Shown here piece after piece: positions 53,347-59,942 of a stretch of 64,000 bases of DNA. Source of the stretch: Halioglobus maricola (GTDB lineage Bacteria > Pseudomonadota > Gammaproteobacteria > Pseudomonadales > Halieaceae); contig NZ_CP036422.1 of the NCBI RefSeq assembly GCF_009388985.1, forward strand, positions 3,300,501 through 3,364,500, read 5' to 3'. Both the position numbers and the translations under genes were made by a program. The stretch's first letter is position 1; each line of letters opens with the position of its first letter. The notes beneath the pieces are model-generated. The model saw only the letters and a list, made by a program, of their open reading frames with translations. It had not been told where the DNA came from and made no database searches.

Positions 53347-53973
53347 TCAGGCCTCGTCTGCAGTGGCCTCGCGAGGCCCCAGAAGGCTTTGGAACAACTC
53401 GGTATCCCGGCTCTGCCAGGCCCACACGCCTATGGGCGCTACCGTCGGTACGATCAATACATTCAGTTGGTAAAACAAGCCGATCACATTGCCATTCGGA
53501 ATAAATATACCTGGCTGCTCCATAAATAACGCGCCGAGGTTAACCATAAGGTCTTTCATGCAAAGGCTGACGAGACCGAAAAGAATAAACGGATAGAGAA
53601 CCATCACGCCACTCACAAACCCACCTAGGTATTTGTCCTTCTGTGTCGCAAAGTGCAGGGTGGCGTAAAAAGGTAAAGAGTAAGACAGGATAGCCGGGTT
53701 GATGCGGAAGCCGAACTGGTACTCCGACTGCTCAGCCGGCACCGGCCTACCGCCAGCCTCTCCGAACTGCGTCAGCAGATAGACGTCGGAATTCTGGAAC
53801 ACAATAGAGTCCACCGTGTTGGGGAACCACCCGCCCAGAATCATATTGGTCAGCCCCACCACCGGCATGGCCACCAGGTCCGCCGCAACAGTCCATAGTG
53901 CAAAACAGGGGATAATCAGCGCGAACACAAATAGCAGGAACTGCCGCAGATGGCGATTCTCAGGCAGCGACAT
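53347..53973 (-). CDS. exosortase H-associated membrane protein
   Basis: 208 residues from the ATG at 53973, with GAGGAAGGGG upstream. Several hydrophobic segments, an extracytoplasmic part with FGFRINPAILSYSLPFYATLHF, and a cytoplasmic-facing tail. It overlaps the exosortase gene by 14 bp. Partner membrane proteins of this size are common next to exosortase H genes. A precise function is not known; it could recruit the substrate or stabilise the sortase. Confidence 0.75.
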   Translation of the reverse strand: MSLPENRHLRQFLLFVFALIIPCFALWTVAADLVAMPVVGLTNMILGGWFPNTVDSIVFQNSDVYLLTQFGEAGGRPVPAEQSEYQFGFRINPAILSYSLPFYATLHFATQKDKYLGGFVSGVMVLYPFILFGLVSLCMKDLMVNLGALFMEQPGIFIPNGNVIGLFYQLNVLIVPTVAPIGVWAWQSRDTELFQSLLGPREATADEA

Positions 53974-54463
53974 GTGCCCCTTCCTCGTTATTTGAAAGGT
54001 AGCGGAGATAGAAAATAAACACGACCAATACATCCAGCATGATCAGAGCCGGCCACAGGTAAAGGTGCACCCAGCCGAAAATATCGAGGTCCCAGTCGCC
54101 GAGATAGAACAAGCTGATGATCCGGGCAACATTCATCACCTGAACGGCAAAAAAGCCGAGCACAATTGCAGCGACCCGCTGTTTCCAGGTACCGGGGAAT
54201 GCCAGCACAGCGGCGATAAGGACAATCGTTGCCTCCACCCCGTTGCATCCGGCTTCAATGGATACGGCAAACCCGGTGTCCTGAAACTGGAGGATCTTGC
54301 CGTACGCAATAACATTCTCATCAAACGGCGATATCAGAAATGCACTGAATTTGGCCAGCCCAGTGGTGAAAGGCACGATGACATGCTCTTGCACTGGATT
54401 GAGCATTTCTACAGTAAACAGGGTCACCAGAACGACCCCGAAAACAACGATAAAACGGTTCAC
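53960..54463 (-). CDS. xrtH: exosortase H
   Basis: 167 residues, GTG start, multi-pass. The exosortase/archaeosortase triad is present: Cys73 in EAGCNGVEA, Arg114 in NVARIISLF, His133 in WVHLYLWP. Length and the order of blocks fit exosortase H, which processes C-terminal sorting signals of the IPTL-CTERM type. The partner gene overlaps downstream. No protein with a C-terminal sorting signal is visible in this window; targets must lie elsewhere. Linked to surface anchoring or EPS. Confidence 0.85.
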   Translation of the reverse strand: MNRFIVVFGVVLVTLFTVEMLNPVQEHVIVPFTTGLAKFSAFLISPFDENVIAYGKILQFQDTGFAVSIEAGCNGVEATIVLIAAVLAFPGTWKQRVAAIVLGFFAVQVMNVARIISLFYLGDWDLDIFGWVHLYLWPALIMLDVLVVFIFYLRYLSNNEEGAHVAA

Positions 54464-54512: not shown

Positions 54513-55697
54513 TCAGAGAATGACTTCTGATGTGGGATGAAAAAAAGCTTCAAGCATGTCGCGCTGTTCAAGTGCATCGCGATAGCCAGTCTCTATCAAA
54601 TCGCGGCAGAAAGCGCCCTCGAAAAGCAGATAGCTCGCCAGGCTCGTGCCCCCACCCCTGGGCGTTGCGCCAGTGATATTCAGCAGGGTACGCATCGCCG
54701 GTGGCAGGCGATGCAGGTGATCGGCCACCACCTGATCGATTTCGATAGAGGGATTGATACAGAGGAAATCCACCAATTGGGCTCCACCTGTCTCGGCGCT
54801 GGGATTCTCATTGTGCACGATACCCACGAGCTCATTGATCCTCTCCAGATGCTCCATATCGCTCTCCAACGCGTCAATAAATGCACTGTTGAAAACATGG
54901 CCCACCATTTTTGCCAGTGATGGCGAGTGAGTCTCTCTACCCTCCACTGGTGGGCGATTACGGTTTCCACTCACACCCACCACCATGACCCGCTGGGCGC
55001 CGAGATGTAGCGCCGGGCTGATCGGCGACACCTGCCTCAGCGCGCCGTCTCCATAGTAGGCACCTTCAACCTGGGTGGCTGGCAGGATGGCCGGAATCGC
55101 AGAGGACGCCAGCAGGTGCTCCACGCCAAGACGTGTCGGAACACCGCGACGCCGAGAACGTCTCCAGGGCAGGAGTACACTGCCATCGAGATCGCTCTGA
55201 TAAAAGGTGACTGATTCGCCCGTGTCATAACTGGAGGCGGTCACACCGATAGCGTCGAGCAGACCACTCTGCAGCCGCTTTTCCAGATCGTCAAAATCAA
55301 TCGCATCTGCCAGTAAACGAGCCAGTGGCTCTGTGTTCAGCAGCGCCAGCGGCTTGCGCCTGCCTGTGCCTCGGTGGAACAGAGAGCCCAGCAGACGAAA
55401 GACACTGCCGATCAGATCCTTATAGCCGGCCCGATACACCTGCTCTACCTGCAGGTTTGCCCAGATATGTTCAACCTTCTTTACCGCCAGGCGAAAATTG
55501 TTGGCGGAGGCGCCCAGTGCCACAGCATTGATCGCGCCAGCAGACGTCCCGGTGATTATGGAAAACGGGTTTTGAGCCTGCTTATCCAGCACCTCCGACG
55601 CTGCACGCAACACACCCACCTGATAGGCGGCACGTGCGCCACCCCCGGTAAGAACAAGGGCGGTCCGATCTTTGGCTGGCAGGTGTGGTGAATTCAT
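54513..55697 (-). CDS. patatin-like phospholipase
   Basis: 394 residues from the ATG at 55697; an upstream start at 55784 would add 29 residues rich in Ser and Thr and is less likely. [17 protein letters not shown] is the oxyanion motif, GTSAG the nucleophile, and [12 protein letters not shown] the Asp-Gly motif of the catalytic dyad. Cytoplasmic or membrane-associated lipid acyl hydrolase. Role probably lipid turnover. The gene lies between the exosortase pair and the divergent DUF454 gene. Confidence 0.88.
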
Positions 55698-55811
55698 ACG
55701 CCCATTGTTACTGGAAGTGGTAGCCGATGACCAGACCCCGCTCGATTCCAAAGCCAACAGTTTGATCGCATCTTTGCTCCCCATTATTGATAGTATTCAC
55801 AACTTCAGCCC

Positions 55812-56219
55812 ATGGTGAGCGAGAGACGCGTGAAACGCCAATTTTACAAACCCCTGGGGTTCCTGTTCCTCGGCCTGGGACTCGCAGGAATACCATTACC
55901 GGTTTTGCCAAGCACGCCCTTTATCTTGCTGGCCGCCTGGTTCTTCGCCCGGTCTTCTGAAAAATGGCATCAGCGCATGCTGAGCAGTGAACTGTTCGGC
56001 CCGATCATCCGCAACTGGGAGGAGCGCCGTTGTATTTCCCAGCGCACCAAGGCCATGGCCATTATCTCGATGCTGGCGGCAGGCACGGCGTCGATCGCAT
56101 TCGCCATGGAGAGTACTGCTCTTCGCATTGGCACGGCGGTACTGTTGTCGATTGGTGGCGCAGTCGTTCTCAGCATCAGGACGTGTCCGGAATGCAGCGG
56201 GCCTAAAGAGGCAGAGTAA
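55812..56219 (+). CDS. DUF454 (YbaN-like) inner membrane protein
   Basis: 135 residues. KPLGFLFLGLGLAGIPLPVLPSTPFILLAAWFFARSS is the family block, with a following ISQRTKAMAI segment and two further hydrophobic segments. YbaN of E. coli is the model; function unknown. Divergent from the patatin gene, and its last 17 bases overlap the convergent acyltransferase gene. Confidence 0.88.
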   Translation: MVSERRVKRQFYKPLGFLFLGLGLAGIPLPVLPSTPFILLAAWFFARSSEKWHQRMLSSELFGPIIRNWEERRCISQRTKAMAIISMLAAGTASIAFAMESTALRIGTAVLLSIGGAVVLSIRTCPECSGPKEAE

Positions 56220-58884
56220 CCACCACGATCTCCGGGTCTTCCGGGCTGCGCAGTGAGCGGAAACCAAGACGCTTACACATCCTCAGCATGCGCGAGTTCT
56301 GCGCCAACACCTCACCGATCATAGTTTCAAGGCCGCGTCTTCGGGCGATGTAGATCAATCGCTCCATCATTCGAGGACCCACCCCGCGGGACTGCCACTC
56401 GTCCGCCACGGTCAGGGCGAACTCACAGGAGTTAGCGTCCGGGTTGGTGACATAGCGCGCAACGCCGATAAAGGTATCCCGGCCTTCCTCGTCCTGTTCG
56501 ATAGCCACCAGCGCCATCTCACGGTCATAGTCGATCTGGGTAAATCGGGCGAGCATCGACGGGGTCAGGCGATGAAGGCCGTGCATGAAACGGAAGTAGC
56601 GGCTTTCAGCCGAGAGGTTGGCGACGAAACTGTCCTCACTGTGACCATCCTCAGGACGGATCGGCCGCAGCAGGACCTCCGAGCCATCTGCCAGTAGCAG
56701 TTGGCTTTCAAGATCGGCCGGATAGGGGTGAATGGCCATGTGTCCATACCGACTGGCCCCAGTGTCCTGCTGCCGCACCGTAATGCGTGCATCCACCGCC
56801 ACAACCCCTTCCTCGTCGACCAGCAAGGGATTGATCTCCAACTCGGCGATCGAGGGCAACTCACATGCGATTTCCGATACGCGCTGCAATACCTCGGAGA
56901 GCTTCGCCATATTGACTTCCGGCAGCTTGCGGAACTGACGTAAATAGCGAGACGCCGCGGTGCGATCCACCAGTTCCCGGGCAAGAAAATCATTCAGTGG
57001 CGGCAGCGCTACCTGCGTCTCGCCGGAAATCGCTTCCGCGGCGGTTCCCGCTGGCCCCAGGTGAACTACCGGGCCGAACACCGGGTCATAGGTGATTCCG
57101 ATCAACAACTCGCGTGCGTGGGGGCGATCTACCATCGGCTCGATGCTCACGCCTTGTAAGCGGGCCTCGCCATCTCTGCGCGCAACGTCGCGCATCAACT
57201 CCTCATAGGCTGTGTGAACTGAGCGGGACTCACTCACATTCAGGCGCACACCACCCACTTCCGATTTGTGCTCAATGTCGGGTGAGACAATCTTCATCGC
57301 CACAGGCAGGCCGAGATTTTCCGCAGCAACAAGCGCTTCTGCCGCGCTGTTGGCAATACTGCTGGGCAATACGGGAATGCGAAAAGCACTCAGTACCGCG
57401 CGGGACTCGGCGATGCTGAGCGTGGTCCTGCGCTCTGCCAATACTTGATCGATAATCGCCTTGGCGCCATAGCTGTCGGGATCGCGATGCTCGGAAAGAG
57501 GCTCGGGCACCTGCATCAATGCGCTCTGGTTCCGTCGGTACCGGGCCAGATAATTGAAGGCATCCACGCCCGCTTCAGGAGAGACAAACTGGGGAATGCC
57601 CGCGCTCGCCATACGTTCGCGCCCCTCGGCTACCAAACCCGCCCCCATCCACGAAGCGAGCACCGGCTTGTGTGCTTTTTCACTCGCAGCGATCACGCCC
57701 TCGGCACAGGCGGAGGCGTCGGTGAAACCCTGCGGGGTCAACAGCACCAGAACGCCGTCGACACCGGCGTCCGCCAGCAGGGCCTCGGTGGCCGCGCGAT
57801 AGCGCTCTGCATCGGCATTGCCGAGAATATCCACCGGGTGAGAGTGCGACCAGTAATCGGGGAGTATCTCACTCAGTCGGTCCAGGGTCTCGGGCGCCAA
57901 CTCTGCCAGGGGCACGCCGATACTGCCCGCCCAGTCAGCAGCCATAACACCGGGTGCGCCACCATTGGTAATCACCCCGAGGCGCGAGCCGCTCACACGG
58001 GCACCGGAAGAAAGAATGGTGGCAGCCGCAATTAACTGGTTGACGATGGTGACGCGCACTGCGCCAGCCCGCAGAATGGCGGCATCGAAAACTTCATCGC
58101 TGCCCAGTGGCGTTTGCATCTGATTCAGTGCTGCGCGTGCGCCGGACTCGTTGCGGCCAGACTTGATCACCACTACCGGCTTCAATCGCGCTGCGGCGCG
58201 CAGGCCACTGAGAAAGAGGCGCGCATTGGTGATGCGTTCGACGTACAGCAGAATGCTGCTGGTGGAGGGATCCTGGGCCAGATAATCGAGCACATCTCCC
58301 AACTTGACGTCGGAGGTTGCTCCGAGGGAAGCCACGGCAGAAAAGCCATAACCCGCTTCGTCAGCCCAATCCAGAATCGCCGAACAGAAGGCGCCGGACT
58401 GGGTCACCAGAGCGACCTTGCCCTCTTTGACGGGGCTGCGTGCTGATGATGCATTGAGATTATTGCGCGGCCGAATAATACCGAGACAGCGGGGACCTAC
58501 CACCGCGATATTATGCCTGCGTGCAATCTCTACCAGCTCGTTTTGCAGTGCCAGCCCCGCTTCCTGGGTTTCACTGAAGCCGCCGGAGAGGATGACCACG
58601 GCCTTGACCTGAGCATCGCCACACTCGCGCATGATCGCCGCCTGACGGTCGGCTCGCGCGGCGACGATGACCAGCTCCACCGCGCCGTCAACATCGGCAA
58701 TAGCAGCTCTGGCCGTGCGCTGCGCGAGCTTGCTGCCAGCAGCTGCGATCAGATGGATATCGCCCTTGAACCCGGATGCGTCGAGATTGTTCAGCACCTG
58801 CTCGCCAATCGGGCTGTACTCCTGATCGCAGATCACTGCAACGGACTCGGGACTGAAAATGCTTTCGAGGTAGTGTTTACGCAT
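56203..58884 (-). CDS. Pat/YfiQ-type bifunctional acetyl-CoA synthetase-like/GNAT lysine acyltransferase
   Basis: 893 residues from the ATG at 58884, which is about the length of Pat/YfiQ. The N-terminal CoA-binding part has IFSPESVAVIC near residue 8 and VVGPRCLGIIRP; a central ligase-like part follows, then an ATP-grasp part (VAMKIVSPDIEHKSEVGGV). The GNAT C-terminus (about 715 on) carries LRPIRPEDG, ADEWQSRGVGPRMMERLI and IARRRGLETMIGEVL. In Salmonella such proteins acetylate acetyl-CoA synthetase on lysine and turn it off. The neighbour across a 131-bp divergent region is a histone deacetylase family gene. Confidence 0.88.
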   Translation of the reverse strand: MRKHYLESIFSPESVAVICDQEYSPIGEQVLNNLDASGFKGDIHLIAAAGSKLAQRTARAAIADVDGAVELVIVAARADRQAAIMRECGDAQVKAVVILSGGFSETQEAGLALQNELVEIARRHNIAVVGPRCLGIIRPRNNLNASSARSPVKEGKVALVTQSGAFCSAILDWADEAGYGFSAVASLGATSDVKLGDVLDYLAQDPSTSSILLYVERITNARLFLSGLRAAARLKPVVVIKSGRNESGARAALNQMQTPLGSDEVFDAAILRAGAVRVTIVNQLIAAATILSSGARVSGSRLGVITNGGAPGVMAADWAGSIGVPLAELAPETLDRLSEILPDYWSHSHPVDILGNADAERYRAATEALLADAGVDGVLVLLTPQGFTDASACAEGVIAASEKAHKPVLASWMGAGLVAEGRERMASAGIPQFVSPEAGVDAFNYLARYRRNQSALMQVPEPLSEHRDPDSYGAKAIIDQVLAERRTTLSIAESRAVLSAFRIPVLPSSIANSAAEALVAAENLGLPVAMKIVSPDIEHKSEVGGVRLNVSESRSVHTAYEELMRDVARRDGEARLQGVSIEPMVDRPHARELLIGITYDPVFGPVVHLGPAGTAAEAISGETQVALPPLNDFLARELVDRTAASRYLRQFRKLPEVNMAKLSEVLQRVSEIACELPSIAELEINPLLVDEEGVVAVDARITVRQQDTGASRYGHMAIHPYPADLESQLLLADGSEVLLRPIRPEDGHSEDSFVANLSAESRYFRFMHGLHRLTPSMLARFTQIDYDREMALVAIEQDEEGRDTFIGVARYVTNPDANSCEFALTVADEWQSRGVGPRMMERLIYIARRRGLETMIGEVLAQNSRMLRMCKRLGFRSLRSPEDPEIVVVTLPL

Positions 58885-59015
58885 GGCGCCAGAGAGTGTG
58901 AGCCAGTGGCTCCCTCGTAAGTAATGATTCAAAGCAAAGTATAGGCACAAATCGCCAGTGCTTCTTGCCCCCGTTGGGGAGAGAGTGCAAGATCGAGAAA
59001 ATGCCGGAGCACGTC

Positions 59016-59942
59016 ATGAGTATCGCCTACATCAGCCACTACAAGTGCCAGCTACACGACATGGGTGAATACCATCCTGAACAGCCAGCACGCCTGTCCG
59101 CCATCAACGATCGCCTGATTGCCACAGGCCTGGATATGATCTTGCGCCAGCACGACGCCCGCCCCGCCGAACGTGCACAACTGCTGCACGCGCACGGCAG
59201 GGCACATGTCGATGCGATATTCCGCAAATCACCCGAAATGGGCACGGTGGCAGTAGACCCCGATACCACCATGAACCCTCACTCACTGGAAGCTGCCCTA
59301 CTGGCAGCGGGTGCTGTAACCCAGGGTGTCGACATGGTCATGGCCGGCGATGTGGGCCAGGTCTTCTGCGGCGTGCGCCCCCCGGGCCACCACGCTGAGC
59401 GCGACAAGCCGATGGGGTTTTGTCTGTTCAACAATATCGCAGTGGGTGCATACCACGCCCTGGAACAACACGGCCTGGAGCGGGTGGCGATCATCGACTT
59501 CGATGTCCACCACGGCAATGGCACCGAAGACATCGTTGCAGGAGATGATCGCATCCTGTTCTGTTCCAGCTTCCAACACCCGTTTTATCCCCACAGCGGT
59601 GACAACTGCGAGGCCGCGAATGTTGTGAACACCCCGCTGGCCGCTGGCAGCGGCGGCGAGGAATTTCGCGCGGCGGTCACCTCCCAGTGGCTGCCGCGAC
59701 TGGCAGAGTTCAATCCACAACTGATCTTCATCTCGGCGGGCTTCGATGGCCACCAGGCAGACCCACTCGCGGACTTCCGCCTGATAGACGAGGATTTTGC
59801 CTGGGTCACCCGACGCCTCTGTGAGCAGGCGGATATCAGCGCCCAGGGGAGAATCGTATCTTCACTGGAAGGGGGCTACGACCTGCACGCCCTGGCACGC
59901 TGCGTCGAAGCACATGTGAAAGCACTGTTGGGCGAGAGCTGA
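59016..59942 (+). CDS. histone deacetylase family protein (AcuC/HDAC-like)
   Basis: 308 residues from ATG 59016 (GGAG upstream). GVRPPGHHAERD (His125, His126), AIIDFDVHHGNGTED (zinc Asp163, His165), CSSFQHPFYPHSGD and SAGFDGHQADPLA give the full zinc-amidohydrolase site. Family members deacetylate lysines (AcuC) or polyamines (acetylpolyamine amidohydrolase). Divergent from the Pat-type acyltransferase gene; together they form a plausible reversible lysine-acylation pair. The spacing of the opposing pair is typical of coregulated genes. Confidence 0.88.
   Translation: MSIAYISHYKCQLHDMGEYHPEQPARLSAINDRLIATGLDMILRQHDARPAERAQLLHAHGRAHVDAIFRKSPEMGTVAVDPDTTMNPHSLEAALLAAGAVTQGVDMVMAGDVGQVFCGVRPPGHHAERDKPMGFCLFNNIAVGAYHALEQHGLERVAIIDFDVHHGNGTEDIVAGDDRILFCSSFQHPFYPHSGDNCEAANVVNTPLAAGSGGEEFRAAVTSQWLPRLAEFNPQLIFISAGFDGHQADPLADFRLIDEDFAWVTRRLCEQADISAQGRIVSSLEGGYDLHALARCVEAHVKALLGES

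Follow-up and report, generated by a model that had tools for sequence, protein, structure and literature searches.

What is the role of a lysine acetyltransferase gene that stands head to head with a deacetylase gene? The question is raised by a window of 64,000 nucleotides from Halioglobus maricola (the whole stretch of DNA analysed here, contig NZ_CP036422.1), in which a gene for a Pat-type acetyltransferase diverges from a gene for a zinc-dependent enzyme of the histone deacetylase family. The original prediction, made from the letters of the window, had placed these two genes face to face across 131 bp, and the coordinates of the open reading frames (ORFs) bear this out (58885-59015, ATG starts used). 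We consider it probable that the two genes form a linked writer-eraser module through which AMP-forming acyl-CoA synthetases would be reversibly acetylated on lysine, acetyl-CoA synthetase (Acs) being the most likely main target. The features concerned are, in window positions:

56203-58884, minus strand: Pat-type lysine acetyltransferase gene (type I GNAT), 893 amino acids; from the ORF list, Pfam and alignment with solved chains
Residues ~1-705 of this protein: putative pseudo-ligase, N-terminal part
Residues ~737-877 of this protein: C-terminal GNAT domain
58885-59015, no strand: shared upstream region of the divergent pair, 131 bp
59016-59942, plus strand: zinc-dependent histone-deacetylase-family gene, predicted class-II-like, 308 amino acids; from Pfam, sequence and fold matches

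The predicted writer and eraser

The Pat protein carries the Pfam domains CoA_binding_2, Succ_CoA_lig and ATP-grasp_5 (E 5.1e-77) and a C-terminal GNAT domain. Its best solved relatives are the 'Protein acetyltransferase' chains 9it0 (E 2.6e-157) and 9isq (E 4.9e-156), the match to 9it0 being near full-length (residues 3-877 of 893). While this domain order agrees with the earlier description as a bifunctional CoA-ligase/GNAT protein, the ligase half is very probably dead, because in the alignment NQMQ takes the place of SHTG, the catalytic-histidine motif of the NDP-forming ligases 8wzu and 2csu, and Gln255 that of the histidine. A ligase part inactivated by loss of this histidine is a known state of type I GNATs (PMC8556138; articles are cited here by PMC number and from excerpts). 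In the GNAT part, E821 aligns with E809 of 9it0; 44 of 45 aligned Pats share it, and the one without an equivalent residue (L037) is cut by a contig end. Changing this type of glutamate in PatZ/SePat lowers the activity and does not abolish it (PMC8556138). Judged by the lost histidine and the E809-equivalent glutamate, the window protein would be a type I GNAT of the Pat/PatZ kind. About 70 residues of the ATP-grasp part (~511-580) are absent in 10 of the 45 aligned Pats (L035, L038-L040, L042, L043, L045, L050, L055 and L092), from which we infer that the ligase half may serve in sensing rather than ligating.

The deacetylase carries a Hist_deacetyl domain (E 2.4e-85). Orthologues were taken from the 81 genomes of the same order with a deacetylase above 250 bits, of which 80 loci were fetched and one (G075) was omitted. 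His125, His126, Asp163, His165 and Asp244 are present in 80/80 aligned orthologues and Tyr288 in 79/80, with one gap. The window protein further shows RPPGHH at residues 121-126 and EGGY at 285-288, and thus has the zinc site (His-His, Asp-His-Asp), the catalytic tyrosine and the RPP and EGGY motifs of the cluster 1 bacterial deacetylases. The closest solved sequence is 5ji5 (E 6.3e-107), followed by HDAC6, the 'lysine deacylase' 5zmp and HDAH. A structural model built from 21 orthologues reached a mean predicted local distance difference test (pLDDT) score of 93.9, and its best fold match was again 5ji5 (template modeling score, TM, 0.97), then HDAH-type enzymes and HDAC6. Since 5ji5, HDAC6, 5zmp and HDAH lead the sequence matches, the enzyme is predicted to be class-II-like and not AcuC. 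The motifs RPP and EGGY accompany robust deacetylases and not long-chain deacylases (PMC11532494), and their presence suggests acetyl over long-chain groups as substrate. The acylation proposed for the pair at the outset is therefore better read as acetylation by default.

Linkage of writer and eraser across genomes

We found a deacetylase match at E 1e-20 or better in 103 of 194 genomes of the same order. In 45 of the 80 fetched loci the deacetylase has a GNAT-fusion writer no more than 600 bp away, and these 45 belong to 12 of 22 families. Regarding the orientation, Pat is divergent in 37 of these, in tandem upstream in 4 and convergent in 3, and in one locus the writer is a fusion of a CoA-transferase with a GNAT. 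The remaining loci comprise 26 without an adjacent writer, 8 edge loci (no writer seen, and at most 3 kb to the end of the contig or stretch) and 1 in which Pat is read as two frames. In the omitted G075, the coordinates show a divergent Pat 97 bp from the deacetylase. In the last of the remaining loci (L052, G022) the divergent Pat appears as two overlapping open frames, possibly through a frameshift or sequencing error; loci with a partial Pat were counted as unpaired (L052 in the same order, L139 and L155 in the named-organism set described below, none in the wider set). Gene calls in the comparison of loci are simple ORF calls.

Clustering of the neighbouring genes likewise returned Pat in 45/80 loci (one of them 4.1 kb off), followed by the next family in 9/80, a figure that depends on the clustering cut-offs chosen. 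As a control we compared the orthologues with paralogues of the same domain family. Among the matches listed, 39 of 55 orthologue rows but 0 of 37 HDAC paralogue rows lay within 1 kb of a Pat row, counting all 74 listed Pat rows and only genomes with such a row; the Pat search in the order scored 4 candidates per genome, so that Pats located elsewhere are undercounted. Because of this difference between orthologues and paralogues, we conclude that the linkage is specific to this deacetylase clade and goes beyond chance. Conservation of the pair, named in the original prediction as its first check, thus holds in part of the relatives, in 45/80 loci of the order and 3/5 of the window's family. 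The idea of a local writer-eraser pair is supported by linkage that is kept through several gene orders.

In the small genomes of family f15 (L063-L066, L081, L083, L098) the deacetylase orthologue has a HAD hydrolase as its neighbour, joined by a class III aminotransferase in all but L098, where the contig ends (Pfam domains seen for the L063 copies). No Pat match at E 1e-60 was found in these genomes. In L044, L047 and L054 the second gene after the deacetylase encodes 640-645 amino acids, a length that suggested Acs; this was rejected, as the L044 copy is HSP90 by Pfam.

Beyond the order, the deacetylase was detected at E 1e-60 or better in 153 of 398 genomes of the phylum. Two further sets of loci were compared, a named-organism set (the best 80 of at least 587 loci) and a wider set of 60 loci, hand-picked from these 153/398 genomes, mostly from the best-scoring rows and thus non-random (one, L215, is of the same order). 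An adjacent writer is present in 30 of the 80 named-organism loci: Pat is divergent in 12, tandem downstream in 6, tandem upstream in 5 and convergent in 1, and 6 carry the CoA-transferase-GNAT fusion. The rest are 16 edge loci, 2 with a partial Pat and 32 with no writer. The wider set shows an adjacent writer in 12/60 (5 Pat, 7 CoA-transferase-GNAT), none in 46 and an edge in 2. Examples of pairing with Pat are Halomonas ventosae, Sedimenticola selenatireducens, Ectothiorhodospira shaposhnikovii, Polaromonas sp. and Aliiroseovarius sp. In four named alphaproteobacterial loci, Pat is in tandem in two (L162, L166), the deacetylase lies by xseB/dxs in the third (L194), and the fourth is cut by a contig end (L196).

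Taken together, the three sets show Pat divergent from the deacetylase, convergent with it, and in tandem either upstream or downstream. Mapped onto a FastTree tree of 215 deacetylases, the context label requires a minimum of 19 changes; if only writer-bearing loci are considered, order or architecture still changes at least 7 times. Edge and partial-Pat loci were excluded from these counts. Because the context changes repeatedly on the tree, the linkage has survived or was rebuilt across several rearrangements, and it was often also lost or never formed.

Regarding the other neighbours, an AMP-forming acyl-CoA synthetase with the motif PKTSTGK lies directly 3' of the deacetylase in L160 (Burkholderiaceae), L186 (Polynucleobacter) and L206, those of L160 and L206 matching NF006020. 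Another cluster is found 3' of the deacetylase in 12 loci, its scanned member (L140) being an enoyl-CoA hydratase, and the scanned member of a further recurrent nearby cluster (L160) is EtfB-like, below cut-off. Part of the gene company of the deacetylase therefore belongs to acetyl- and acyl-CoA metabolism, with no dependence on a linked Pat.

The second writer architecture was found in 14 loci (L041 and 13 outside the 80 same-order loci), always directly upstream and in tandem: an acetyl-CoA hydrolase/transferase domain is fused to a GNAT (Pfam domains seen for the L041 and L142 copies). The 6 loci of the named-organism set are all from Alteromonadales (Alteromonas, Glaciecola, Aestuariibacter and Cognaticolwellia). 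The N-terminal part of the L142 fusion matches solved 4-hydroxybutyrate CoA-transferases (E 1.2e-132), and its Glu236, invariant in 14/14 fusions, aligns with Glu238 of the 4-hydroxybutyrate CoA-transferase 3gk7, which we take to be the catalytic glutamate. Glu540 in the GNAT part (L142 numbering) is likewise invariant in 14/14. A role of the CoA-transferase part as a dead sensor was considered and found unsupported, as the aligned catalytic glutamate is kept in all 14. The fusion looks like an unstudied type of protein acetyltransferase. In G144 (L041:4144-9237) the fusion, the deacetylase and an acetyl-CoA synthetase follow each other in a row on one strand, the first two separated by 2 bp. 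In L142, L150 and L204 an ORF resembling Acs is found 4 to 5.5 kb downstream.

A broader proposal, of which we are slightly more doubtful than confident, would make the deacetylase the fixed core of a Proteobacteria-wide module of acetyl-CoA homeostasis, with a writer slot open to unrelated fusions of CoA enzymes with GNATs. The CoA-transferase-GNAT fusion would then be a new class of protein acetyltransferase which, unlike Pat, may keep an active CoA-handling site and could couple acyl-CoA exchange directly to the switching of Acs.

Target, mechanism and alternative explanations

In the proposed mechanism Pat would sense acetyl-CoA via its dead ligase half and acetylate the catalytic lysine in the PX4GK motif of Acs, and perhaps of other AMP-forming ligases, so that Acs would be switched off when acetyl-CoA is plentiful. 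The zinc deacetylase would remove the acetyl group and reactivate Acs without NAD, and both genes may be under common regulation from the 131-bp region. The H. maricola genome has one AcsA above the family cut-off (C1:811082-812944), and it carries PKTRSGK, a form of the known acetylation motif, quoted as RSGKIMR in PMC11532494. The genome has one Hist_deacetyl gene. The original prediction had named an acyl-CoA synthetase of lipid breakdown as a candidate target, which is possible; AMP-forming Acs is the better-supported first target, because Acs adjoins the deacetylase in G144.

Several observations weigh against a dedicated Acs switch. The pair is adjacent in only 3 of the 5 loci of the window's own family, and the deacetylase has no adjacent writer in 26/80 same-order, 32/80 named-organism and 46/60 wider loci; it can therefore function when no writer is linked to it. 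The genes found after it in Loktanella (L194) and some other loci are xseB and dxs, and the clusters containing the xseB and dxs members comprise 15 and 20 loci. Acs lies ~2.5 Mb from the pair on the contig (~1.8 Mb if circular; window at C1:3300501-3364500), the window contains none of the genome's 31 AMP-ligase match rows, and no acyl-CoA synthetase adjoins the pair. Relatives of sub-cluster 1b showed no activity on Bacillus AcsA-K549Ac, while some cluster 3 and 4 deacetylases did act on this substrate (PMC11532494). A SIR2 gene is also present, above the NF003738 cut-off (376 vs 305) and under the CobB cut-off (204 vs 320). SIR2 is no rarer in genomes of the order with the deacetylase orthologue (58/81) than in those without (83/113, p = 0.87), and since its presence is alike in both groups there is no sign at this level that the deacetylase replaces a sirtuin; a complementary distribution, considered as support for an exchange of erasers, was not found.

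Some of these points fit an alternative that we regard as unlikely but worth keeping in view, namely that both genes act in protein acetylation while the deacetylase erases marks from a wide range of proteins, or from transcription or translation factors, the ligase targets of Pat are reset mainly by the sirtuin, and the linkage reflects general acetate balance and not a common substrate. The NF003738-type sirtuin gene and the many orthologues without an adjacent writer are in line with this, as is AcuC, which itself has broad substrates (PMC13039410). It accounts less well for the row of writer, eraser and Acs in G144 and for the acyl-CoA synthetases directly 3' of the deacetylase in L160, L186 and L206.

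That the deacetylase is an acetylpolyamine amidohydrolase, Pat being incidental or itself polyamine-acetylating, appears highly improbable. In its favour, acetylpolyamine hydrolase is the main annotation in sub-clusters 1c and 1d, which belong to the same cluster (PMC11532494). The gatekeeper residue is Glu in HDAC10 (in PEG) and the Ile of PIS in bacterial polyamine enzymes, which are placed only in cluster 4, and a Glu to Leu change in HDAC10 shifted the enzyme toward lysine deacetylation (PMC11532494). In the window protein this position is Leu251 in the context P250-L251-A252, neither PEG nor PIS, and the 80 orthologues have Met (40), Leu (39) or Ile (1) and in no case Glu. The best folds, moreover, are 5ji5 and HDAH-type enzymes. 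On the gatekeeper residue we rejected, as the main reading, a polyamine-only deacetylase, the outcome that the original prediction had named as fatal to it and that the leucine makes unlikely. That the two genes are neighbours only through inheritance of an ancestral order, and do not work together, can be given hardly any weight: 37 of the 44 same-order Pat pairs share the divergent order, which could be inherited, but there are four relative orders, two writer architectures and, among the matches listed, no Pat row within 1 kb of an HDAC paralogue row.

Surroundings of the pair and known systems

On the Pat side, window ORFs and profile scans place a DUF454 gene, a patatin-like gene and an exosortase H pair, and on the deacetylase side an antiporter of the Na_H_Exchanger family, a P450 and an AraC-type regulator. 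No acyl-CoA synthetase was seen among the nine neighbouring proteins scanned with Pfam. The DUF454 gene (plus strand) and the Pat gene (minus strand) overlap by 17 bp at their 3' ends (56203-56219). The patatin-like phospholipase (54513-55784, minus strand) is weakly similar to a model of CBASS effector phospholipases, with a score far under the cut-off. Exosortase H and its associated membrane protein (TIGR04177, NF041730) lie at 53347-54463 on the minus strand; the listed ORFs overlap, and a later start of the second could remove the overlap.

Within the 131-bp gap a consensus scan found no match to a sigma-70-type promoter or a terminator, and a canonical promoter was accordingly rejected. 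The block GCAAAGTATA.GCACAAAT is common to the window and the genus-mate G106 within the otherwise variable gap; read toward Pat it contains TATACT, a possible -10 element. In another genus-mate (G158; L033, L117) ~22.6 kb are inserted between the divergent HDAC and Pat genes, with both outer flanks kept: one has the antiporter and P450, the other DUF454, patatin and exosortase H. Within the inserted stretch are an open frame of at least 3900 amino acids and genes whose matches to an RND/HlyD-type adaptor and to a daptide HExxH protease fall below cut-off.

To our knowledge, the class-II-like zinc deacetylases of Gram-negative bacteria are mostly without known substrates. The linkage with Pat, recurrent in many orders, supplies a writer and a class of likely substrates for a large, widespread clade of them, the pair would give an NAD-independent route to reactivate Acs, and the CoA-transferase-GNAT fusion points to a further writer that is directly testable.

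Regarding known systems, the writer is of the same type as PatZ/SePat of enterobacteria, with a probably dead NDP-ligase half, a C-terminal GNAT and the E809 equivalent. The eraser of E. coli is the sirtuin CobB (PMC4299603), whereas in the window a zinc hydrolase adjoins the writer. The closest solved sequence and fold to this hydrolase, 5ji5, is an HDAC-superfamily protein of Burkholderia phymatum. AcuA is a single-domain GNAT and has no ligase domain. The Bacillus AcuA/AcuC system (with AcuB), to which the pair had been likened, resembles it in joining a linked GNAT writer to a zinc HDAC-family eraser, in Bacillus for AcsA and in one operon (PMC13039410, PMC13121692). The likeness stands as logic and not as homology: the window writer is multi-domain and apparently a type I GNAT, the eraser is predicted to be class-II-like and nearest to 5ji5 and class II enzymes while AcuC is class I (PMC8556138), and no acs is present at the locus. 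In Rhodopseudomonas palustris, RpPat and the zinc HDAC-family LdaA work in opposite directions on Acs and on several other acyl-CoA synthetases (PMC6640162); by described function this couple shares both the Pat writer and the zinc HDAC-family eraser with the window pair and appears to be the closer precedent. Neither a type I Pat linked to a class-II-like deacetylase nor the CoA-transferase-GNAT form was found by searches of open-licence literature, some of them with other aims than the linkage, which leaves their absence from print unproven; PMC9848294 contains the terms 'acetyl-CoA hydrolase' and 'GNAT family N-acetyltransferase' once each. The function is thus known elsewhere, from AcuA/AcuC and RpPat/LdaA, and the parts are of known kinds; what appears to be new is their linked combination and the fusion form.

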